From Advenella sp. FME57 (GTDB lineage: Bacteria; Pseudomonadota; Gammaproteobacteria; Burkholderiales; Burkholderiaceae_B), in the NCBI RefSeq assembly GCF_014897675.1, contig NZ_JABUXU010000007.1, forward strand, positions 1 through 64,000: 64,000 nucleotides of DNA, in the 5' to 3' direction. The translations under genes and the position numbers were made by a program. Below the pieces are notes generated by a model. It had not been told where the DNA came from. It saw only the letters and a program-made list of their open reading frames with translations, and made no database searches. This document shows positions 42,412-53,880 of the stretch, piece after piece. Each line of letters opens with the position of its first letter. Within the stretch, counting starts at the first letter, position 1.

Positions 42412-42463
42412 CCTACCGGGGCATGGCAGAAACTCAAATGGCTGGCCTGAACCGCTGGCGGTA

Positions 42464-43141
42464 TTAATTGATCTGTTCTGCCAGCGCCCGCCATTTTTTT
42501 ATCCCCTGCGTCACGGACGCTGCTGCTTGCCGCTCGGTCCCGCCGACTGGAACAGCGCCTTCAGCCGATAGTGTTTTACGCACTTCAGGATCATTCAATA
42601 TCCGGTTGATTTCGACATTCAGCTTCTTGATGATATGCCGGGGAGTTCCCTTGGGCGCCATCAACCCGAACCAACCGTTGCCTTCGTAGCCAGGCAAGCC
42701 CCACTCGGCGATCGTTGGCACATTGGGAAGCGCTGGCGAACGGCTTACTCCGGTTACTGCCAGTGCCTTGAGCGTGCCGGCCCTGATTTGCGAGAGCACC
42801 AACGGAAACGGCGCAAAATTTAACTGCGTCATTCCCGCTACCAGATCATTGATGGCCGGTCCACTACCCTTATAGGGAATATGGGTCAGCTTGATGCTGG
42901 CCATCGAAGCGAACAACTCACCAAACAAGTGGTTCGATGTCCCCTTTCCCGATGAACCATAATTGAGCTTGCCGGGATTTTTCTGTGCATAAGCAATCAG
43001 GCCCCGGACATCCTGCACTGGCAGACTAGCCGTTGCAGTCAGAATGGTTGGCGGTGTTGCCAACAGAATAACCGGGTCCAGATCGGTGACCGGATTATAA
43101 GGAAGATCTTTATACAGGCTTTGGTGTCGTTCCTGCTTCAC
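42464..43141 (-). pseudogene. Bug/TctC-type binding protein, 5'-truncated and frameshifted
   Basis: The 225-codon frame matches only the C-terminal two thirds of a Bug protein (SLYKDLPYNPVTDLDPV onward, then HIPYKGSGPAINDLVAG). No signal peptide and no AGG substrate loop precede it. Reading upstream in another frame gives ILTVASSEAGT, which is what should come just before TQSLYKDLP; removing one base within CACCAAA (about 43127-43133) would join them. Upstream of about 43165 the resemblance stops. So it is a remnant, last in the direction of the ALDH group. Confidence 0.8.
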
Positions 43142-43595
43142 TGCTAGCGACCGTCAATATGGATGGAATGCACTGTGGTTATTTCCATTCAGAATCGACC
43201 ACATACTGGACACTGTGCGCCACCACACCCAAAGCACGCTCGCCCAGTCCCACCGTCGAACCCTTTATACGTTTGTTCCTGGCGTACCTGAAATCTTCAC
43301 GCAACTCCACTGCCATACATAATGATGCATGAAATAAACCACGGTGACGATCGCTTGCAGCGTCTTCACCGTGGTCTGGTTTTTCCAATTATGCAGGCCA
43401 GGGACACCACCGCACTAGCAAGGTCAAGCCCACGGCATCGCTTTTTTCTGCCACCCCGCCATTGCACCGCGTGCGCCTTCCCGCCAACGTTCGGACAGGA
43501 AAAACATCGCCTGGCAACCCCGCCAGGCATCGTCCACGTTGTCAGGCGCACTTTACAGTGAAAGGCCGCCAGTTCACGCAGTTATGGCGACACGC
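43142..43595. other. Intergenic region with gene remnants and a hairpin
   Basis: 454 bp between the Bug remnant and the aldehyde dehydrogenase gene. It holds the frameshifted N-terminal piece of the Bug remnant (43133-43165), a 69-codon minus-strand frame ending at 43179 that I do not recognise, and a hairpin at 43338-43375 which could end the ALDH transcript. The remainder is featureless. Confidence 0.5.
43338..43375. terminator. Long hairpin, possible terminator of the ALDH group
   Basis: Perfect ten-base arms ACCACGGTGA / TCACCGTGGT with an 18-base loop. T-runs are modest on both sides (GGTTTTT plus, TTTATTT minus). It lies 220 bp beyond the ALDH stop. Confidence 0.45.
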
Positions 43596-45023
43596 TCATT
43601 GCGCCGGATCCAGCGCAATGACCACGTTCTTGGAGCGCTGATAATTCAAATACGCCTGGATACCCTTTTCCTTTCCAATTCCGCTCTCTTTATAGCCACC
43701 AAGCGGGTTCTCGACACCGCCGGCAAAGTAGTCATTGACAAAAATCTGACCTGCTTCAATTCGCGATACGAGTTGATGGATGCTGCTTATGTCGCGTCCC
43801 CATACGCCTGCAGCCAACCCGAAGTTTGTATTATTAGCCAACGCGATACACTCCTGGAGCGATTCGAACTTACGCAAAACAGCAACCGAGCCGAAGATTT
43901 CATTGCTGCTGATACAGTTGTCTTCATCCGTTACCGCAAAGACCACGCGCGGCACAAACCAGCCCTGCTGCGGCACCAGGGACGCATCGCTGCGATAAAC
44001 CAGCGGCAGATTTTCCTTTTCGCCAGCCGCAATGAAATTGAGCACTTTTTGATATTGCTGCCTGGTGATAATCGGCGCCCAACTCTCGCGGCTTTGATCC
44101 AGACGAGACAATGCCTCCGTCAATTTCTCCTGAAATGCATCGTAGATACTCGTATGCACGAAAATCCGGCTGCCGGCAATGCATACCTGACCGGCATTCG
44201 ATACAAAGCCCTTGATGCATCCCTGCACCGCGCGATCCAGATCGGCATCGGCCAGCACAATATTGGGAGACTTTCCGCCCAACTCCAGGGTAACCGGCTT
44301 GACTGAACCGGCGCACAGCGCCCCGACCGATTTTCCGGTCTGGACCGAGCCGGTGAAAGAAACCTTGGCAACGTCCGGATGCCCCACCAACGCTGAACCG
44401 GTCTTGCCGTCTCCGGTCACTACGTTGATGACGCCAGGCGCGACGATATCAGCCTGAAAAATCAATGTGACCAGTTCTACCGTCGAAGCCGACGTATGCT
44501 CCGAAGGTTTAACAACGACGGTATTTCCTGCGGCCAGCGCCGCCGCAGCCGAACGCGCAAACTGATTCAGCGGCAGATTCCATGGCGTAATGATACCCAC
44601 TACCCCATACGGTTCGTGCTGATTAAAGCAGTGATATCCGTCGCCAATGTCGATCAGCTCGCCGCCGCGCTGTGATGTCAGATTGCCAAAAAACTCAAAA
44701 TACTCTGCAGCAATATCCATCTCTCTGTCTGCTGCGCCCTTGGTCTTGCCGGTATTGAGTGATTCGATGCTGGACAAGTGCGCTTTATTGGTTCGGATCA
44801 GTTGCGCAATCGCGTGCATGGCGCGCCCCCGAAAGAGCGGGCGCAGCTGCCCCCACGCCGCCGCCGCGCGCTTTGCAGCCGCCACGGCATTATTGACGTC
44901 GTCGGGAGTCGATTGGGTAATCAGGTGAACCTGCTCGCCTTTGGTCGGATCAAAAGCCGGAAAAAAGGACTCGCCGGCGGACCGCTTTTGCTGACCGTTA
45001 ATAAGTAAATGATACTTTTGCAT
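43596..45023 (-). CDS. NAD(P)-dependent aldehyde dehydrogenase
   Basis: 475 residues of the classical ALDH family. Seen: Asn148 in TPWNLPLNQ, Lys172 in VKPSEHT, Glu247 in LELGGKSPN and nucleophile Cys281 in GQVCIAGSR; C-terminal GGYKESGIGKEKG. Oxidises an aldehyde to an acid. It follows the Bug gene by one base and the GMC oxidoreductase gene two genes upstream, suggesting it takes the aldehyde made by the latter. Substrate unknown. Confidence 0.92.
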   Translation of the reverse strand: MQKYHLLINGQQKRSAGESFFPAFDPTKGEQVHLITQSTPDDVNNAVAAAKRAAAAWGQLRPLFRGRAMHAIAQLIRTNKAHLSSIESLNTGKTKGAADREMDIAAEYFEFFGNLTSQRGGELIDIGDGYHCFNQHEPYGVVGIITPWNLPLNQFARSAAAALAAGNTVVVKPSEHTSASTVELVTLIFQADIVAPGVINVVTGDGKTGSALVGHPDVAKVSFTGSVQTGKSVGALCAGSVKPVTLELGGKSPNIVLADADLDRAVQGCIKGFVSNAGQVCIAGSRIFVHTSIYDAFQEKLTEALSRLDQSRESWAPIITRQQYQKVLNFIAAGEKENLPLVYRSDASLVPQQGWFVPRVVFAVTDEDNCISSNEIFGSVAVLRKFESLQECIALANNTNFGLAAGVWGRDISSIHQLVSRIEAGQIFVNDYFAGGVENPLGGYKESGIGKEKGIQAYLNYQRSKNVVIALDPAQ

Positions 45024-45024
45024 G

Positions 45025-46005
45025 TCAGATGCCCCCTTGATTAATGTTTTTGGCCAGCGCCAGCGCCCGTTCCAGCTTTAATGTCGCTTCAATTTCAGAA
45101 CGGAAGGTCTCGCTATTGAGACTCGGGTTGATGATGACGCCATAATCGGCGCAGAACTTCTGGTACCGTGCGGATTGGACGGCATACATTGCCGCCTCGA
45201 AGATCTGTTTGGAAACCTCCGGCGGCGTTCCTCTGGGTGCGCACAGTCCATTCCAGTTCATGTAGGAGAATTTTTTTCCAATGCTTTCCGAAATCGTAGG
45301 CAACTGCGGCACCAGCGGGTTGCGCTCTTTTGACGAGATAGCCAGCACCTTAATCGCACCGGGCTTCTGAATATACGGCACAACGCCGGTCAAAAAGCTC
45401 ACACCGGTATCGATGTACCCGCCCAACATCGCCTGCGTTGACTCTGTCGCGGATTTGTACGGGATAAGGTTGACTTCCAGATTGGGGGTAAACTCTGTGG
45501 CCAGTAACTCCCACATAACGTGTGAAGGTGCACCCAGCCCGCCAACACCCAAAGACACTTTCTTTGGACTGCGTTTGATATCTTCGATCATATCCGATAG
45601 CGATTGGTAGCCTTTCGAGCTTCGCGCATATAAGGTTTGCGCTGAATCTGCAAGTCGGGCTATCGGGTCGACAAGATCAAGCAAGTCATACCGCTGGAAG
45701 ATGGCGTCAAGAGAAACATTGCCATTGGAAATGTAGCCGATCGTATGACCATCAGGCTTGCTGCTGCCCAATTCACGCAAAGCGGATACACCGCCTGCGC
45801 CAGGCTTGTTCTGCACCACGATAGAGACGCCCAGACGCTCTGACATTGCCGCAGCGATGATCCGCGTACTCACATCGGTCTGGTCTCCTGCCGTAAACGG
45901 ATGGATTAGTCGGATTTCACGCCTTGGCCAACTACCGGGCTTTGCCATTACGATCGGGGATACGATCAGTGCAGACGATGCTGCCAGAAAACTTCTTCTT
46001 TTCAT
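45025..46005 (-). CDS. Bug-family extracytoplasmic substrate-binding protein
   Basis: 326 residues with an N-terminal signal (MKRRSFLAAS, which also resembles a twin-arginine signal), then PRREIRLIHPFTAG and the NKPGAGG loop, HVMWELLA and IPYKSATESTQAML of the TctC/Bug fold. Such proteins bind carboxylates or other small organics and feed tripartite tricarboxylate transporters. No TctA/TctB genes are adjacent. A strong AAGGAGG overlaps the GMC stop nine bases upstream. Confidence 0.9.
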   Translation of the reverse strand: MKRRSFLAASSALIVSPIVMAKPGSWPRREIRLIHPFTAGDQTDVSTRIIAAAMSERLGVSIVVQNKPGAGGVSALRELGSSKPDGHTIGYISNGNVSLDAIFQRYDLLDLVDPIARLADSAQTLYARSSKGYQSLSDMIEDIKRSPKKVSLGVGGLGAPSHVMWELLATEFTPNLEVNLIPYKSATESTQAMLGGYIDTGVSFLTGVVPYIQKPGAIKVLAISSKERNPLVPQLPTISESIGKKFSYMNWNGLCAPRGTPPEVSKQIFEAAMYAVQSARYQKFCADYGVIINPSLNSETFRSEIEATLKLERALALAKNINQGGI

Positions 46006-46014
46006 GTCTCCTCC

Positions 46015-47622
46015 TTATTTGTCATTCAATATGAGTTGTGCCGCCCGTTCTGCCAGGGCGATCGTGGGGATATTGGTATTCGATGAGGGAATGCTGGGCA
46101 TGACCGACGCATCGACCACACGCAGGTTACGCAGGCCCCTTACCCGCAATTGGCTGTCGACGACCGCCAACTCGTCATTACCCATCCGGCACGTGCCTAC
46201 CGGATGCCAGGATGTCTGCCCACTGCGACGAATATAATCAAGAAGATCGCCATCGCTTTGCACACTTGAGGAGGGCCTGGTTTCTTCGACGATAATGTCC
46301 TTGAATATGCCGGTAGCCGACAGCGCGCGCGCCTTGCGTAGCGCACTCACCATGATTTTCTGGTCAGTCTCCTGCTTCAGGTAATTGGGATTGATTCGCG
46401 ACATGTGCGCCGCATCATTCGACACAATATGAGAACTGCCGCGCGACTCCGGACGCAACTGAAAGAACCCGATCGTAAAGCCCGGAAAAAGATCCAGGCC
46501 ATAGCCATTGGATGTTGAATAACGATCCGCTGCGCTCAGATGGTGAATCTGCAACTTGATGGTGGGCTGCTCATGATCGCGTCCTTCATGGTGGATCAGG
46601 GCGTGCGAAGATGCCCCCGGCGTTGCCATCAGACCCTTTTTGGTAAACAGATAGCGGGCACCCATCAAATACGTGCGCAATTTACTGGCCACGATGCGAT
46701 TGAGCCCCACCTGTTTATTGGCCTTGAAGGAAATCCTGGACTGCAGATGATCCGACAAATTCTCGCCAACGCCGGCCAGCGCATGCACCAGTTTTACACC
46801 GGCCTGGCTCAATACATCGGGATTGCCGATGCCGGAAAGCTCAAGGATTTTGGGTGAATTGACCGTACCGGCAGAAAGAATAATCTCTTTTGCTGCCTGT
46901 ACAGTTTGTTGCGAGCCATTCTGGATAAAGCTGACCGATCTGGCGACGCCATCCTGGAGATGAATCTTCGTTACCATCGCATCGGTCATCACGGTCAGGT
47001 TTTTCCGACGCTTTGCCTCGGCGACATAGGTAGAAGCCGTACCACAACGTACGCCGTTGCGCGTTGAGAACTGCAAGAGCGAGACACCGTCGTAACGCTC
47101 GCCGTTATAGTCATCGTTATAGAGAACGCCAACATCGTTACATGATCTTATAAATGCCCGCGTCAACAGATCATCATCATTTACTTTGGTCGCAACAATT
47201 TTGCCATCACGTCCACGATACGTGTCGCTGCCAAAGGCGGCATTTTCAAGTTTCCTGAAAAACGGCAGCATATTCTCGTAAGACCAGCCCTGACATCCGG
47301 CTTTTTCCCAGTTGTCATACTCTCTCGGATCGCCACGGGAAAACAGCATCCCATTGACCGAGCTGGAGCCCCCGACCATTCTGCCGTGAGGAAACAGTAC
47401 TTTTTGGCGATTCAGATATGCCTGTTCAACGGTTTCGTCCTTCCAGAAATATTTTTCGCGGTTCAGAATTTTGGCAAGGCCGATAGGCACTCTAATCCAA
47501 AAATCGTTATGATGTTCACCGCCAGCTTCGATCAAAAGCACGCTTAAATCATTGTTCTCACTCAGCCTGTTAGCGATAACAGAGCCGGCGGAACCCGCAC
47601 CAATTACAATATAGTCATACAT
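46015..47622 (-). CDS. GMC family FAD-dependent oxidoreductase (alcohol dehydrogenase type)
   Basis: 535 residues. Seen: FAD loop IGAGSAGSVIANRL (from residue 7), GMC signature 1 around GRMVGGSSSVNGMLFSRG, signature 2 at LSAGTVNSPKILELSGIG, and the catalytic His in SWHPVGTCRMG. Resembles choline dehydrogenase-like and polyethylene-glycol or aliphatic alcohol dehydrogenases; the exact substrate is not evident. First gene of GMC-Bug-ALDH, 202 bp after the CoA-transferase gene. Confidence 0.9.
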   Translation of the reverse strand: MYDYIVIGAGSAGSVIANRLSENNDLSVLLIEAGGEHHNDFWIRVPIGLAKILNREKYFWKDETVEQAYLNRQKVLFPHGRMVGGSSSVNGMLFSRGDPREYDNWEKAGCQGWSYENMLPFFRKLENAAFGSDTYRGRDGKIVATKVNDDDLLTRAFIRSCNDVGVLYNDDYNGERYDGVSLLQFSTRNGVRCGTASTYVAEAKRRKNLTVMTDAMVTKIHLQDGVARSVSFIQNGSQQTVQAAKEIILSAGTVNSPKILELSGIGNPDVLSQAGVKLVHALAGVGENLSDHLQSRISFKANKQVGLNRIVASKLRTYLMGARYLFTKKGLMATPGASSHALIHHEGRDHEQPTIKLQIHHLSAADRYSTSNGYGLDLFPGFTIGFFQLRPESRGSSHIVSNDAAHMSRINPNYLKQETDQKIMVSALRKARALSATGIFKDIIVEETRPSSSVQSDGDLLDYIRRSGQTSWHPVGTCRMGNDELAVVDSQLRVRGLRNLRVVDASVMPSIPSSNTNIPTIALAERAAQLILNDK

Positions 47623-47756
47623 CTTCTGTCTTTCCTCAAAGCTGAATTTATAAAGTCTCGGACGATCTGTCTTGCGCTTCGGGCAATGGAAAATAACTCA
47701 GCAAGAATGCGCGGCTTGCACAATACCCGGCACACCAAGAGATGAAGCTAAAACAT

Positions 47757-47783
47757 CATATGGTAAACATAGTTGGCCATATG
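47757..47783. promoter_or_regulatory. Inverted repeat upstream of the GMC gene
   Basis: CATATGG-N13-CCATATG, 135 bp upstream of the GMC start in the only large gap of the cluster. It has no T-run, so an operator is more likely than a terminator; the protein that binds is unknown. Confidence 0.35.
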
Positions 47784-47824
47784 AATAGACCAGGACAATC
47801 AGGAAACGATAGCGCTCGACTGCT

Positions 47825-49072
47825 TCAGGCCCCCTTTCTGCTCGAATGGTGCACGACGCCTGCAGTGATCAGTGCATCGATTTCATCGGGGCTCATAGCC
47901 AGCTCGGTGCCAAGCACATCGCGGGTATCCTCTCCCAGCGCCGGACCGGAGCATCGAATACGCCCCGGCGATTTACTCAGCTTGGGCGTCACGCCGATCT
48001 GACTGACACTGCCCAACTCAGGATGTGCGACCTGCGCAATCATGTCGCGCGCCCGATAATGCGGTTCTTCAAAAATATCCTCGATGGTCAATACACGAGA
48101 GACCGGCACGCCGGCATCCTGTAGGGACTTTTCAAGCACACGTCCGTCCTGCTGCCGTGTCCAGTCGGCTACCTCTGAGTCAATGTAGCGCATATTTTCC
48201 GCCTGTCCGCGCGCCCGGATCGTGCTATAGCGGGGATCAGTCAGAAAATCGGGCCGGTTCATTAATCTGGAAAGCCTGTCGAATGTCGCGTTGCTATTGG
48301 CCGCAATCAGTACAAAACCGCCGTCTGCCGTCGGGTACAAACTGTTGGGCGCCATGGAGGGAAGATTCGGCCCCTGACGCATGGGCACTTTGCCCAGCTT
48401 GTCGAATGCCGGCACCAGCGACTCCATTTGCGAAAAGGCCGATTCATAAAGCGCTGCGTCAATAACCTGTCCTTCTCCCGATGCATCGCGATGGCGAAGC
48501 GCTGCCAGAATACCGAATGCGGTGTACACAGAGGTCAGATAATCTGTGGTGGCCAGCGCGACCCGGGACGGCGGACGATCCGGATCTCCGGTCATGTGCC
48601 GCACGCCGCCGAATGCCTCGCAAATCGCACCGTAACCGGGCAAATGAGCACTTGGGCCGGTCTGCCCGTAGCCACTGATGCGTGCATAGATAATGGCTGG
48701 ATTAAGGCGGGACATGGCCTCATAACCCAGCCCGAGTCGCTCCAAGACGCCGGGACGATTGTTTTCAAGCACCACATCGGCTTTGCCGATCAGGTCCTGG
48801 GCAAGCCTTTGGCCCTCTGCGGTCTTCAAGTCCATCGCGATGGATCTTTTGCCTCGAAGTATTGAGGCGCCATACAGCGACACCTCGCCAACATGGCTGC
48901 CCATCTGACGCACCGGGTCGCCGTCAGGCGGCTCAATTTTGATTACGTCTGCGCCAAAATCAGCCAGCAGCCGACCGCAGGCGGGGCCGGCGATAGTGGT
49001 GCAGATTTCAATGACACGGATGCCTGTCAGTGGCGCGGCCCCGGTCTGCGCACCCGCTGTTTCCTTTTTCAT
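47825..49072 (-). CDS. CaiB/BaiF family CoA-transferase
   Basis: 415-residue class III CoA-transferase. Seen: GIRVIEICTTIAGPACGRLLADFGADVIKIE (start of the fold; key parts GPACGRLLADFGADVIKIE), the catalytic Asp region EPPDGDPVR and MDLKTAEG, plus SGYGQTGP. Moves CoA from a donor such as succinyl-CoA to a carboxylic acid. Start at ATG 49072, one base after the biotin-carrier stop; longer frames run into that gene. Context suggests it activates the acid for the adjacent carboxylase. Confidence 0.92.
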   Translation of the reverse strand: MKKETAGAQTGAAPLTGIRVIEICTTIAGPACGRLLADFGADVIKIEPPDGDPVRQMGSHVGEVSLYGASILRGKRSIAMDLKTAEGQRLAQDLIGKADVVLENNRPGVLERLGLGYEAMSRLNPAIIYARISGYGQTGPSAHLPGYGAICEAFGGVRHMTGDPDRPPSRVALATTDYLTSVYTAFGILAALRHRDASGEGQVIDAALYESAFSQMESLVPAFDKLGKVPMRQGPNLPSMAPNSLYPTADGGFVLIAANSNATFDRLSRLMNRPDFLTDPRYSTIRARGQAENMRYIDSEVADWTRQQDGRVLEKSLQDAGVPVSRVLTIEDIFEEPHYRARDMIAQVAHPELGSVSQIGVTPKLSKSPGRIRCSGPALGEDTRDVLGTELAMSPDEIDALITAGVVHHSSRKGA

Positions 49073-49073
49073 G

Positions 49074-49301
49074 TCAGCCGCTCCTTTTGCCGACCTGACC
49101 CACCACCTGGCCGTCTTCCACCGCATCCCCTTCCTTGACATCAAGCGCCAGCAGCACGCCCGCTTCTTCACTCATGACCGGAATTTCCATCTTCATGGAT
49201 TCAACGATAAGGACAGGTTCATCGGGCGTTACCTCAGCCCCCACTTGAACGAGGATTTTCCACACGGTTCCTGTCACTTCCGAGATCAATTCGGTTGACA
49301 T
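49074..49301 (-). CDS. Free-standing biotinyl carrier protein (BCCP-like)
   Basis: 75 residues: a complete biotinyl/lipoyl domain with the target lysine in ESMKME (Lys37) and matching half VKEGDAVEDGQVVGQV. It has no N-terminal linker such as AccB has. Start at ATG 49301, because AGGAG lies seven bases before it, whereas the ATG two codons earlier is too close. It lies between the biotin carboxylase and CoA-transferase genes, so it likely carries carboxybiotin between the carboxylase subunits. Confidence 0.88.
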   Translation of the reverse strand: MSTELISEVTGTVWKILVQVGAEVTPDEPVLIVESMKMEIPVMSEEAGVLLALDVKEGDAVEDGQVVGQVGKRSG

Positions 49302-49324
49302 AGTCATTCTCCTGATAAATAAAA

Positions 49325-50668
49325 TTAATTTGAAAGTATGTTTTGGGTCAGGCCGGTATCAACTTCACCGGTCTTAAACTGGGTGCTGCCGATCACCTTC
49401 TGTATGAAGGGGATGTTATGTTTGACGCCTTCGATCACCGTAGCTGCCAATGCGTCCTGCAGCTTGCTGATTGCCTTATCCCTGCTGTCGGCATGCACAA
49501 TAAGTTTGGCGATCATCGGATCGTAGTATGGTGTGATGACATTGCCCGCAGCAAAGCCGGTTTCCACCCGGATGCCCTGGGCAGCGGGAAAAGACAATGC
49601 CTGCAGTGTGCCGGGCGAGGGGAAAAACCTGACCGGATCTTCAGCGTAGATGCGCGCCTCGATTGCATGGCCCCGCACCGTGACCGGTTCAGGTATGACC
49701 TCGGACAAACGCTCACCGGCGGCCAGTCGAATCTGCGCCTGAACCAGGTCAACTCCTGTAATTTCTTCGGTCACTGCATGTTCAACCTGGATTCTTGTAT
49801 TGGTTTCCAGAAATTGAAAATTTTCCTGCTGATCCAATAAGGTCTCAACGGTGCCAATCACGTCATACTTCATGTTCTGCAACACTTGTACAATCTCGCT
49901 GGCCTTGGCGTTTATCAGCGCTCTGGGTATTCGCGCTGCGGGCGACTCCTCAATCACTTTCTGATGGCGCCGCTGCACCGAGCAATCGCGCTCAAACAAA
50001 TGGCAGGCATTGCCATAACGGTCCGCCAGAATCTGGAATTCAATGTGGCGCGGCCGTTCCATCATGCGCTCCAGGTACAGATCGCTACTGCCGAAACTGC
50101 GTAGCGCCATGGCTTTGGTTTGAACAACCGCCTTGAGCAATTGCGCATCATTGTGCACCGCCACCATGCCGATACCGCCGCCTCCGGCGGCTGCCTTTAC
50201 CATGACCGGATAGCCGATCCTGGCAGCGGCTGCCCGTTGATCATTTTCATCATCGGTCAGCAAGCCGGAGCTGGCCGCCATCGCCAGGCCAAACTCATGC
50301 ATCAGCGCACGCGCCCGAGTCTTGTGGCCCATCGCATCAATCCACTGTGGGCTGGGACCGATGAAGGTGACCCCGGCCTGCATGACTTTGCGGGCAAATG
50401 CTGCATTTTCTGAAAGAAAACCGTAGCCCGGATGAATGGCATCGGCCCCGCTTTGTTCCAGGACCTTGAGTATCGCGTCCTGATTCATATAACTGTGTGC
50501 CGGATCGGCCGGCCCGATGCAGTAGGTTTCGTCGGCCAGAGCCAGATACGGCAATGACGCATCGGCCTCTGAATAGATTGCCACTGACCGTATCCCCATC
50601 TTGCGCAATGTCCGTAAAACGCGCGCAGCTATCGCTGCCCTGTTTGAAACCAGGACCTTTTGAAACAT
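49325..50668 (-). CDS. Biotin carboxylase subunit of an acyl-CoA carboxylase
   Basis: 447 residues, just the biotin-carboxylase part: ATP-grasp with the glycine-rich loop AAAGGGGIGM, HIEFQILAD, EMNTRIQVEH-like segment FLETNTRIQVEHAVTEE, and the C-terminal domain with GHAIEARIYAEDP. Carboxylates biotin using ATP and bicarbonate. No carrier domain is fused, in line with the separate BCCP gene. Start at ATG 50668, nine bases after GGAG; the ATG at 50689 would place that site inside the gene. Separate from the housekeeping accBC by context. Confidence 0.92.
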   Translation of the reverse strand: MFQKVLVSNRAAIAARVLRTLRKMGIRSVAIYSEADASLPYLALADETYCIGPADPAHSYMNQDAILKVLEQSGADAIHPGYGFLSENAAFARKVMQAGVTFIGPSPQWIDAMGHKTRARALMHEFGLAMAASSGLLTDDENDQRAAAARIGYPVMVKAAAGGGGIGMVAVHNDAQLLKAVVQTKAMALRSFGSSDLYLERMMERPRHIEFQILADRYGNACHLFERDCSVQRRHQKVIEESPAARIPRALINAKASEIVQVLQNMKYDVIGTVETLLDQQENFQFLETNTRIQVEHAVTEEITGVDLVQAQIRLAAGERLSEVIPEPVTVRGHAIEARIYAEDPVRFFPSPGTLQALSFPAAQGIRVETGFAAGNVITPYYDPMIAKLIVHADSRDKAISKLQDALAATVIEGVKHNIPFIQKVIGSTQFKTGEVDTGLTQNILSN

Positions 50669-50751
50669 TGTTGTGTACTCCAAATTCAATGATTAATAAC
50701 GAACAGTCCGGTTGCTGCGGACAGTATCAGATATCGCAATAGGTCCACTGG

Positions 50752-52281
50752 TCAGTGACTCGTTGGCCAAGTGCGCATCAGATGTTCGCCTACACCACCG
50801 GTCAGGCGCATTCCATGTATTTCCAGACTGCGGATCAGATGCGCCCGGGTCTGCGCAGGATGGATGACCGACTGCGCGCCAAAGACTGCCGCCGCATCGT
50901 AGGCAGATGTCCCTTTTGTCATTTGCTCAAGCAGTTGTTGGTATTGCACGGGGTCATCAGCCTCGGTCACGCCATGCACAATCGAGACGGCCGAGCGCGG
51001 GTCCATAAAATTGACTTCTGCAGTGAACCAGTTGATCACCTCATCGGCGTTACCGCCGCCACCCATATTCAGTACAGCCTGCCCGTAGGTTTTGCGCATA
51101 ACAACTGAAATCTTTGGCACAGTAACCAGAGAAATGGCGTTCATCCAATTCATCACATGCCCAATTGCGCCCTGGCGCTCGCCTTCGACTCCGATCAAAA
51201 AGCCGGGCTGATCCACCATAAACACCAGCGGAATATTGAACGAGTCGCACAGAATCATGAAGCTGACCGCCTTGCGGCACGCCTGCGGATCAATGGCTCC
51301 GCCTTTATGGATAGGGTTATTGGCCACAATACCGACAGAGCGGCCGCCCAGCCTGGCCAATGCGGTAACAATGGACTTTCCAAACCGAGGCTTGAGCTCG
51401 AAAATCGAATCCTTGTCATAAATAAGATTCAGGATTTTTCTGACGTCATATACCTGGGCACGGGCGCTGGGCAGAATATCCAGGATGCGCCCGATATCGT
51501 CCCCTGATCCTTCAGGAACCGGACACACGGGTGGCGGCTCGTTATGATGGCTGGGAAGATAAGACAAAAATCGTCCAATGGCGTCCAATGCTTGTTCGTC
51601 TGTGTCGACGGCCAGATCGACCATACCGGTGACCTCTGTATGCAACTTCCACCCCCCCAGGGTTTCGGGGTCAACCTCTTCATTAATGGCGCGGGCAGTC
51701 AGCTTAACGCTGGACACCGCAGTAATCGCCCCCTTGCGCATGACCACGAAATCACCCAACGCGGCATACCAGGATGAGGAACCGTAACAATGCCCAAGCA
51801 CTGCAGACACCCATGGCGTTTCCCGCGTACGCAAATACTGGGTCGGCCGGTCTCCGCTGCCTACGCCCGACGCTCCCATGACATCGGGCATGCGGGCACC
51901 GGTAGACTCTCCGAGAAAAATCATGGGCATACCATGGCGAGTCGCAACACGCTTGACATAACCAACCTTCCTGGTATTGACTGAACTGCTGGATGCCCCC
52001 ATAACGGTAAAGTCATTGGATACAACGGCGACCTCTCTGCCATTGATTTTCCCGTACCCCGTTACCTTGCCGTCGGCAGCAGAGCGCTCGCGCATTTCCG
52101 GCCGGATACTGGTCGCAAAAAGACCCATCTCGTGAAACGTGCCGGAATCCACCAGGCGGTCAATGCGTTCGCGCGCATTCATAACACCCTCTTGCGCCCG
52201 CTGCTGCAACTTGCGCTCTCCCCCCATGGAAAGCACCTTGCGGCGCAGCTCTTCGTGTTCCTGTATCAAATCGTCAAACAT
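50752..52281 (-). CDS. Carboxyltransferase subunit of an acyl-CoA carboxylase (AccD/PccB type)
   Basis: 509 residues with two crotonase-like halves. Seen: ARERIDRLVDSGTFHE, GESTGARMPD, the second half LVFMVDQPGFLIG and KTYGQAVLNMGGGG. Transfers the carboxyl group from carboxybiotin to an acyl-CoA. Family members include propionyl-, methylcrotonyl- and geranyl-CoA carboxylases; I cannot assign the acyl chain. Start at ATG 52281 after GGAAC; a TTG four codons earlier is less likely. Confidence 0.92.
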   Translation of the reverse strand: MFDDLIQEHEELRRKVLSMGGERKLQQRAQEGVMNARERIDRLVDSGTFHEMGLFATSIRPEMRERSAADGKVTGYGKINGREVAVVSNDFTVMGASSSSVNTRKVGYVKRVATRHGMPMIFLGESTGARMPDVMGASGVGSGDRPTQYLRTRETPWVSAVLGHCYGSSSWYAALGDFVVMRKGAITAVSSVKLTARAINEEVDPETLGGWKLHTEVTGMVDLAVDTDEQALDAIGRFLSYLPSHHNEPPPVCPVPEGSGDDIGRILDILPSARAQVYDVRKILNLIYDKDSIFELKPRFGKSIVTALARLGGRSVGIVANNPIHKGGAIDPQACRKAVSFMILCDSFNIPLVFMVDQPGFLIGVEGERQGAIGHVMNWMNAISLVTVPKISVVMRKTYGQAVLNMGGGGNADEVINWFTAEVNFMDPRSAVSIVHGVTEADDPVQYQQLLEQMTKGTSAYDAAAVFGAQSVIHPAQTRAHLIRSLEIHGMRLTGGVGEHLMRTWPTSH

Positions 52282-52307
52282 GTTCCGTTCCAAATAATTT
52301 CATTAAA

Positions 52308-53288
52308 TTAACGCTGCTTCGTAGCTTGCCGTAACTGAGGAATCGATTCGGCAAGCTGGTTCCATTGTTGAGATTCCTGTTTCATTTGCTCCGTTAACTG
52401 GGCAGGAGAAGAGAATGCCGCCTGTGCGCCTATGTCTGCCAGCTTGTTGGAGAAGGTGTCATCCTGGACGACGCGGCGCGTCGCATCTCCCAGCACCTGT
52501 ACGATATGAGCGGGCGTGTTGGCCGGCACCAGCAGGCCAAACCAGACGCTGAGGTCCAGATCGACTCCCAGCTCCTGAAGCGCCGGAACTGACGGCAAAG
52601 CCGGATTTCGTTCTTTTGATGTCACGGCCAGCGCGGTCAGGCGCTCCGACTGAAGATAGCCCAGAACGACGGGCACAAGGGAAAACACCGTGTCGATCTG
52701 TCCGCCGATTACATCGTTGGTCGCTTGCGCACCGCCTTTATATGGCACGTGCAGCAAAGGCGCCTGGGCGCGATGCTTCATTAACTCCACGTACAGGCTA
52801 AGCTGAGCGCTGGATATCGTATATTTGCCCGGCGTTGCGCGCGATTTGCTGATCATGTCCTGTACAGTCGCAAATGCGGAATCAGTGCGCGTCGCGATCA
52901 CAAACGGCACCCTGGCAATCACGCTGACCGGCTGGAAATCGTCAATCGGGTCAAATGAAGGAGCCGGTCCGAAAACGGTATTCAGCGTCGGCGTGCCGCC
53001 GCCGAATAACACGGTATAACCATCGGGCTTCGCATTAGCCACGATATTGCTCCCGATATTGGTAGCAGCGCCCGGTTTATTGTCAACCACCACAGGCTGT
53101 CCTGTTACCTGGCTCAGCTTTGCCGCAAACAGCCGGGCAACCGTATCGGTACTGCCCCCGGCAGGATACGAAACAATCATTTGTATCGGCTTTGACGGGT
53201 AAGCCTTGTGCGTCGACGCACCCGCAGGCGCGATATTTACTGACACACAACAAACCAGGGTAGCCATCCAAATCAGCAATGCTTGCAT
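52308..53288 (-). CDS. Bug-family extracytoplasmic substrate-binding protein
   Basis: 326 residues with a signal peptide (hydrophobic residues 3-20, cleavage near AGAS), then YPSKPIQMIVSYPAGGSTDTVAR (the substrate loop AGGSTDT), VVDNKPGA and HVPYKGGAQATNDVI. The AGGSTDT loop holds the carboxylate contacts of this family. First gene of the carboxylase unit. Start ATG 53288 with GGAG six bases before; an ATG four codons earlier reads through that site. No membrane components of a tripartite transporter adjoin. Confidence 0.92.
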   Translation of the reverse strand: MQALLIWMATLVCCVSVNIAPAGASTHKAYPSKPIQMIVSYPAGGSTDTVARLFAAKLSQVTGQPVVVDNKPGAATNIGSNIVANAKPDGYTVLFGGGTPTLNTVFGPAPSFDPIDDFQPVSVIARVPFVIATRTDSAFATVQDMISKSRATPGKYTISSAQLSLYVELMKHRAQAPLLHVPYKGGAQATNDVIGGQIDTVFSLVPVVLGYLQSERLTALAVTSKERNPALPSVPALQELGVDLDLSVWFGLLVPANTPAHIVQVLGDATRRVVQDDTFSNKLADIGAQAAFSSPAQLTEQMKQESQQWNQLAESIPQLRQATKQR

Positions 53289-53327
53289 TTTTATCTCCAT
53301 GAATTATCTCGTTCAAGACGAAATTTT

Positions 53328-53347
53328 TTGTATAGTCATTGATACAA
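53328..53347. promoter_or_regulatory. Inverted repeat, candidate MarR operator near the Bug gene
   Basis: TTGTAT-N8-ATACAA, 40 bp upstream of the Bug start. The spacing of about two half-turns suits a MarR dimer; the assignment is inference from position. Confidence 0.5.
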
Positions 53348-53371
53348 TATGATCTACCTTTTCAAAATAAA

Positions 53372-53388
53372 AGTCAACATGGTTGACT
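53372..53388. promoter_or_regulatory. Perfect inverted repeat, candidate MarR operator near marR
   Basis: AGTCAAC-ATG-GTTGACT, a perfect 7-3-7 repeat, ending 21 bp before the MarR start. Its position suits autoregulation. It differs from the neighbouring TTGTAT-N8-ATACAA repeat, so the two may bind different proteins. Confidence 0.55.
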
Positions 53389-53409
53389 AATTAAGAGTAA
53401 CGGCACATT

Positions 53410-53880
53410 ATGATTTCTGCACGAAAAATAGCTCAATTGCGCTCGGCCCGCTCCTTTGGCATAGGGCGTTTGTTTCTGTTGGCGCGCCGCGATTTCTCTC
53501 AACGCCTGTCAAAGAAAATGGTTGAAAAGACCGGAAATACCAATCCCATTGTGGGAGGCTCGATCCTGCCCTTTATCGATCTGGAAGGAACACGAAGCAC
53601 AGAAGTTGCGCGACGCGCGGGCATTTCCAAACAGGCGGTCGGCAAACTGCTTAAGGATCTGGAGGACGCAAGTCTGGTCACGCGCTCACAGGACGAATCC
53701 GATGGCAGGGCACAGATTATTTTTTTTACGGATGCCGGTGTCGATTATTTGCAGCAAATCCATGCTTCCATCAAATCGATTGAGCAGGAATATGAAGCAA
53801 TATTAGGGAAACAAGAGGTGGAAAATTTGCGTAGCAGCTTAAGCAAGCTGGCTTACGCTGAAAATACCCCACCCAAATAA
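53410..53880 (+). CDS. MarR family transcriptional regulator
   Basis: 156 residues. Winged helix at about 45-115: STEVARRAGISKQAVGKLLKDLEDASLVTRSQDESDGRAQ, in which ISKQAVGKLLKDLE is the recognition part and the D-x-R wing follows. N- and C-terminal helices form the dimer interface. It is divergent from the Bug/carboxylase genes and is presumably their ligand-responsive repressor. Residues 1-30 are basic and longer than in many MarR proteins. Confidence 0.88.
   Translation: MISARKIAQLRSARSFGIGRLFLLARRDFSQRLSKKMVEKTGNTNPIVGGSILPFIDLEGTRSTEVARRAGISKQAVGKLLKDLEDASLVTRSQDESDGRAQIIFFTDAGVDYLQQIHASIKSIEQEYEAILGKQEVENLRSSLSKLAYAENTPPK

Follow-up and report, generated by a model that had tools for sequence, protein, structure and literature searches.

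A 64,000-nucleotide stretch of the Advenella sp. FME57 genome (contig NZ_JABUXU010000007.1, positions 1 to 64,000; hereafter the window) carries a nine-gene set around a biotin-dependent carboxyltransferase, CT1, that falls into a clade separate from the reference enzymes compared here. The set is real and partly conserved: the carboxylase half recurs in related genomes and the joined eight-gene pathway does not. We favor, at a probability of about 0.55, the reading that these genes form a horizontally exchanged catabolic island, in which a conserved core for coenzyme A (CoA) activation and carboxylation is joined by an optional alcohol-oxidizing feeder. An earlier note on the same DNA had proposed one route from alcohol through aldehyde to acid, followed by CoA activation and carboxylation, and its interpretation is partly supported. 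Open reading frames (ORFs) and Pfam domains confirm the families and order it described, with a MarR gene divergent from genes for a Bug protein (Bug1), CT1, biotin carboxylase (BC), biotin carboxyl carrier protein (BCCP) and a CaiB-type CoA-transferase (CaiB), a 202-bp gap (47623-47824), and then genes for a GMC flavoprotein (GMC), a second Bug protein (Bug2) and an aldehyde dehydrogenase (ALDH).

The carboxylase core recurs with a conserved palindrome

The core lies on the minus strand and begins with Bug1 (52308..53300), a TctC-type solute-binding protein (PF03401, 193.5 bits), followed by CT1 (50752..52281), BC (49325..50668), BCCP (49074..49307) and CaiB (47825..49072). The MarR-family regulator (53410..53880, plus strand; Pfam MarR_2/MarR) is divergent from this operon. 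The same order, with MarR ahead of Bug-CT1-BC-BCCP-CaiB, is found in Advenella sp. S44 (L040/L046), whose carboxyltransferase is 98% identical to CT1, and in a member of another genus of the family (G094, locus L047). In G225 and G226, an ADP-forming acyl-CoA ligase takes the place of CaiB after MarR and Bug-CT1 (the G226 ligase is named by model matches); BC and BCCP come next in G225, and no BC lies within 8 kb in G226. Variovorax sp. SRS16 has the order Bug-CT1-BC-BCCP-Bug-CaiB-CT2-MarR, where CT2 is a second carboxyltransferase. Because two relatives keep the CoA step by a different enzyme family, the CaiB/ligase swap supports a CoA-activation step. Together with the intact active-site features of BC and BCCP, it supports the predicted succession of CoA activation and carboxylation.

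Genes were counted within 8 kb of CT1 in 58 other loci: BCCP is present in 47, Bug in 42, BC in 35, CaiB in 29 and the ADP-forming ligase in 22, with both activators in 4 and either one in 47. Each locus contributes one CT1 to these counts, genes are named by their best hits in a reference set assembled for this analysis, and the loci are of unequal length, some coming from closely related genomes. The window is omitted, as are L046 (the same DNA as L040), L080 (whose CT1 is split in two), L130 (where an overlapping ORF masks CT1), and L082-L085 and L118, which are not CT1 loci. Grouping at 70% identity reduces the 47 activator-bearing loci to 9 groups. The gene-order search bears out the carboxylase half, whose order is kept, and not the joined set of eight genes. 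In L045 (12685-13851), L054 (6567-7766) and L055 (11972), metK-like genes stand near CT1, ligase and BC genes, and the one in L054 scores above the TIGR01034 cut-off.

Between MarR and Bug1 lies a putative MarR operator, AGTCAACATGGTTGACT (53372..53388), which forms a perfect 7-3-7 inverted repeat. Every one of the six loci in the CT1 subclade that contains the window has the 17-bp palindrome AGTCAACNNNGTTGACT upstream of Bug-CT1; the match is exact for Variovorax, G094, S44 and the window itself, with one mismatch in G225 and two in G226. In Variovorax, the palindrome keeps its place in front even though MarR is encoded at the opposite end of the operon. No copy with up to two mismatches occurs in two further MarR-carrying loci, L042 and L071, and none with up to one mismatch in 1,162,498 bases of the remaining loci fetched (numbers 50-137, which partly overlap). 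The strain's own 4.74-Mb assembly holds a single exact copy, one site with one mismatch and seven with two; these mismatched sites are not significant because a control with the reversed pattern yielded more, at 26 per strand. MarR homologues are 43-90% identical in 7 related loci, which were chosen for carrying a MarR gene. Across the whole window, near-matches to GTCAACNNNGTTGAC with up to three mismatches number 51, against 21.4 expected.

CT1 represents a separate carboxyltransferase clade

The start of CT1 (PF01039, 322.7-322.8 bits) is probably the ATG at 52281: in the S44 match a TAA interrupts the extended frame, and the S44 ORF (509 residues) begins at the corresponding ATG. In a 101-row tree, 66 CT1 rows form one side of a branch with SH-aLRT support of 99, and the rows of methylcrotonyl-CoA carboxylase (MCC), of an atu neighbor and of propionyl-CoA carboxylase (PCC)/decarboxylase-like enzymes all lie outside. 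The references were the genome's own MCC and eight plasmid-borne carboxyltransferases: an annotated MCC of Sinorhizobium meliloti, a Sagittula gene beside atuA, a Streptomyces acyl-CoA carboxylase subunit, a Parabacteroides gene beside mce and sodium-pump decarboxylase subunits, a Rhodococcus gene annotated as a 12S subunit, and three uncharacterised genes. L044, L046 and ORFs of <480 or >=1000 residues were left out. Within this small reference set CT1 does not cluster with a known class. The proposal that it is not of the liu (MCC) class is supported by its place outside the MCC rows and by a separate MCC gene elsewhere in the genome (C4; 850.8 bits to 3u9r). The window, S44, G094, G225, G226 and Variovorax sp. 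SRS16 form a six-row subclade, again with support of 99.

By sequence, the nearest solved structures of CT1 are PCC-type (1vrg, 287.6 bits, vs 147.4 at best for MCC and 139.7 for geranyl-CoA carboxylase). CT1 shares the D-x-PGF motif of PCC-like rows and lacks the N-I-T-G-F/Y motif of MCC/geranyl-like rows, so alpha-carboxylation is likelier, on motif grounds, than vinylogous gamma-carboxylation. Conserved in >=90% of CT1 rows and seen in <=10% of the remaining rows are, among other residues, G124, E125, P132, R151, R153, W157, S168, S169, W171, S191 and W211. A serine replaces the second glycine of the A-G-G-A segment: S168 aligns with Gly183 of Streptomyces coelicolor PccB (counted by hand on the structure alignment), a position that we take to be an oxyanion-hole residue. 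The clade-specific arginines stand just before the first oxyanion segment. Compared with PCC beta, MmdA and the transcarboxylase 12S subunit (TIGR01117; 1vrg, 3n6r, 1on3), CT1 is thus alike in family, D-x-PGF motif and best structure matches, and differs in its clade, in this serine and in its own arginine/tryptophan signature. No curated model among those scanned assigns a substrate to CT1, and its score against TIGR01117 (mmdA) is 341.6 bits, below the cut-off of 998.8. Since the clade has no assigned substrate, the acyl group that CT1 would carboxylate is probably not a textbook one.

At the thresholds used, CT1 has matches in 30 of 268 family genomes; in the order sample it has them in 34 of 399, and 26 of those 34 carry more than one copy (the strain itself is counted in both sets). 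The clade as sampled here is mainly found in Burkholderiales; among 30 of 307 plasmid records listed, identity drops from 50.8% (Sulfitobacter) to 37% and lower. Two CT1 paralogues are adjacent, or split by one or two Bug genes, in L121, L122, L123, L126 and L127. Long ORFs in L119, L120 and L130 had suggested CT1-BC fusions, which were dropped when none proved to join CT1 and BC. A further paralogue in the strain's own genome (C59; L078 2565-12961), 50% identical to CT1, lies near TctA, MaoC, BC, CitE, enolase-like and ADP-forming ligase genes, and similar loci with this second CT1 type occur in other genera and in Sulfitobacter. The enolase-like, MaoC, CitE and TctA genes of this sister type suggested a vinylogous carboxylation-hydration-lyase route, which was not adopted because CT1 is without the MCC-type motif.

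Separate BC and BCCP genes accompany a CoA-transferase

BC is a stand-alone protein with Pfam biotin carboxylase domains, including ATP-grasp, and aligns over most of its length to BC structures. It probably starts at the ATG at 50668, and the S44 ORF is 447 residues. The catalytic residues at Escherichia coli BC positions Lys116, Lys159, Lys238, Glu276, Glu288, Asn290, Arg292 and Arg338 are the same in the alignment. BCCP (PF00364) contains ESMKMEIPV, whose MKM is the motif of the biotinylated lysine. The earlier length of 75 residues for BCCP is correct when counted from the second ATG, and the full frame has 77 codons. BC (447 codons) and BCCP are thus on separate genes, with no fused BC-BCCP alpha subunit, in contrast to the bacterial PCC arrangement.

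CaiB probably starts at the ATG at 49072, one base from the BCCP stop, and exceeds the PF02515 cut-off (401 vs 23.3 bits). Its nearest solved structures are 10uh (formyl-CoA transferase), 4ed9 (CaiB/BaiF), 4hl6 (YfdE) and 9br6 (succinate-hydroxymethylglutarate (HMG) CoA-transferase). We presume succinyl-CoA to be the usual donor in several of these nearest families. Model and structure matches are best to the dicarboxylate class III CoA-transferases (succinyl-CoA:mesaconate, succinate-glutarate, succinate-HMG). Unlike these, the window CaiB is coupled to a carboxylase and misses all curated cut-offs: all seven matched NCBIfam models, which name substrate pairs, score below theirs (best 266.1 vs 700). 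In the strain's own genome (C11), L085 7059-12883 contains an 825-residue ORF with two CaiB-like stretches beside a 1105-residue ORF with BC-like and carboxyltransferase-like stretches.

The MCC of liu gene sets is likewise a biotin-dependent acyl-CoA carboxylase, and differs in its carboxyltransferase clade and in its pathway genes. The absence of hydratase and lyase genes stated earlier is borne out among the 20 window proteins scanned (within 35790-62864). A likeness in layout is seen in the archaeal acetyl-CoA carboxylase (ACC)/PCC, described in PMC3199775 as having BC, BCCP and carboxyltransferase on three separate genes. In contrast to that system, the window set adjoins CaiB, Bug and MarR genes and has a carboxyltransferase of the CT1 clade. 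None of the open-access papers found describes the gene set in its title or abstract opening, an absence that is weak within this open-access scope.

The oxidation half is not conserved and is largely missing in S44

The second half, also on the minus strand, comprises GMC (46015..47622; PF00732/PF05199), a predicted alcohol dehydrogenase/oxidase, Bug2 (45025..46005; PF03401), of TctC type and 29% identical to Bug1, and ALDH (43596..45023; PF00171), with spacers of 9 bp between GMC and Bug2 and 1 bp between Bug2 and ALDH. The nearest structures of GMC are 8b7s (a chloramphenicol-inactivating oxidoreductase), an alcohol oxidase and a choline dehydrogenase. GMC and ALDH share their families with betA and betB of choline/betaine aldehyde oxidation, which are their best NCBIfam matches, and miss both cut-offs (433.1 vs 732.1 and 402.6 vs 668.6 bits). 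GMC and ALDH occur together within 8 kb in none of the 58 other CT1 loci. GMC alone is found in 2 (L053, L068) and ALDH in 3 (L056, L061 and the S44 remnant in L040). GMC homologues are confined to 2 of 268 family genomes at E <=1e-160 (the strain itself and a 50% match in G128), to the strain itself in the order sample at 1e-170 (1 of 389), and are absent from the plasmids at 1e-120; ALDH homologues at 1e-140 are confined to the strain itself (1 of 268). The gap before GMC contains an imperfect inverted repeat, GTAAACATAGTTGGC (47756..47784), that suggestively resembles the operator, with two mismatches in its 12-base core and 4/14 over the 17-mer.

The set lies between genes for an M48 peptidase and polA, which are present in all 10 genomes of the genus, the strain's own included. 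The M48-polA distance is 12.4 kb in the window, 7.4 kb in both S44 and G047, and 5.4 kb in G048; it comes to about 1 kb for G046 and G050, and to roughly 60-160 bp for G044, G045, G049 and G052. At this site the block is absent or replaced in all eight other Advenella genomes (six of the eight sites were fetched and aligned), including G046, the nearest by polA (98%). At the left edge of the island we found a 5'-truncated Bug remnant (42464..43141, minus strand) that the earlier note did not list. At this remnant site G048 has a longer open frame of 380 residues (L166 2204-3346), and G047 (L167) has similar DNA with other neighbors.

Third-position identity between the window and S44 is 0.882-0.910 for CT1, BC, BCCP and CaiB, 0.758-0.789 for Bug1, MarR and LysE, 0.577-0.617 for EamA, M48 and polA, and 0.753 for the gene after polA. 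Because this identity is high in the island and low in EamA, M48 and polA, it suggests exchange of the island between lineages. S44 lacks window positions 43965-47824 and 42412-43508, and with them GMC, Bug2 and most of ALDH. A 375-bp ALDH tail with a still-open frame remains behind CaiB, with identities of 0.825, 0.900 and 0.817 at codon positions 1, 2 and 3, vs 0.986, 0.996 and 0.900 for CT1. This pattern indicates that the ALDH tail is little constrained, close to what is expected without constraint, and that the carboxylase genes are constrained; the carboxylase half seems to have been kept in S44 without the oxidation half. Since the tail sits behind CaiB and its third-position identity is island-like, both halves probably belonged to one horizontally exchanged island, of which S44 later lost most of the oxidation half.

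Discussion

From these protein families and their arrangement we infer the chemistry, regulation and type of substrate that the island would serve. MarR would bind the palindrome before Bug1-CT1-BC-BCCP-CaiB, probably repressing transcription until an acid or CoA ligand releases it. Bug1 would capture a small carboxylate, to which CaiB would transfer CoA from a donor acyl-CoA; BC and BCCP would load biotin with CO2 at the expense of ATP, and CT1 would pass the CO2 from biotin to the acyl-CoA. GMC and ALDH would oxidize an alcohol precursor to the same acid, a step that would be dispensable and that S44 has probably lost. As a feeder from alcohol to acid this half is plausible but optional, and it is not supported as part of a conserved pathway, because GMC and ALDH do not travel with the carboxylase.

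Several points weigh against this island reading. The link of GMC and ALDH to the carboxylase is seen in one strain and one remnant with a still-open frame. The operator-like repeat in the gap is weak, being equalled at four other places in the window, from which we estimate the probability of a chance match in 202 bp at ~0.01-0.02. Of the 58 loci, 11 lack both CaiB and a CoA ligase within 8 kb, and 23, G226 among them, lack a BC; contig ends cut some of the loci. The carboxyltransferase tree was built by a quick method with few references, and meeting long branches were flagged. An AlphaFold model of CT1 (7 rows) was too poor to use (mean pLDDT 51.2).

The two halves could instead be catabolic units without relation to each other that came together at a variable site, the GMC-Bug-ALDH operon serving another compound. 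We regard this as the less likely reading. In its favor are the 202-bp gap, the absence of a GMC-ALDH pair from the other CT1 loci, the low identity between Bug1 and Bug2, the other genes held at this site in G047 and G048, and the constraint in S44 on the carboxylase but little on the ALDH tail. The possibility of two units raised earlier is likewise strengthened by S44 and G094, where the carboxylase half stands without the oxidation half. Against separate origins, the halves share a strand and the gap holds the operator-like repeat, and the third-position identity of the S44 ALDH tail (0.817) is that of the island rather than of EamA, M48 and polA (0.58-0.62), which makes one shared island probable.

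CT1 may also act with CT2 on the same CoA ester, in a mixed complex, in sequence or by transcarboxylation. CT2 is a best-hit label that includes the genome's own MCC and is not one clade in the tree (4 changes). Within 8 kb of CT1, it is present in 20 of 29 loci of the CaiB type and in 1 of 22 of the ligase type (4 loci belong to both types), and the strain's own genome has a second set, BC / BCCP-CaiB-CT2-Bug-Bug (C51), whose CaiB is 67% identical to that of the window. In each of the three searched genomes with a MarR CaiB-type operon (G000, G051, G094) there is likewise a CT2, 71-100% identical to the C51 protein. Such CT2 matches (1e-90) occur anyway in 8 of the 15 genomes searched, however, and the G094 match has an internal TAA; CaiB alone says little because it is matched at 1e-90 in all 15. 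No CT2 stands beside CT1 in the window, S44 or G094 loci, and a transcarboxylase would not need the BC that is present. The association reflects few independent events, since it follows CT1 phylogeny and the 47 loci reduce to 9 groups. Joint action on one ester is improbable. Least probable of all is the reading that CT1 is an ordinary enzyme of propionate or leucine metabolism, akin to PCC or MCC: membership of PF01039 and PCC-type structure matches speak for it, but the genome has its own MCC, CT1 falls outside both groups of rows and its mmdA score is far below the cut-off.

We tentatively propose, at somewhat less than even odds, that CT1 is a functional class with an acyl-CoA substrate that no known class uses, and that its CaiB form pairs with a second carboxyltransferase, both sharing one BC/BCCP and one CoA-transferase. 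Because the clade-specific arginines precede the first oxyanion segment, this substrate may bear a second charged group. With the palindrome conserved and CaiB swapped for a ligase in relatives, the substrate of CT1 becomes tractable, through the ligand that releases MarR and the acid that CaiB activates. A new carboxylase specificity, if true, would be of interest for the design of CO2-fixing pathways.

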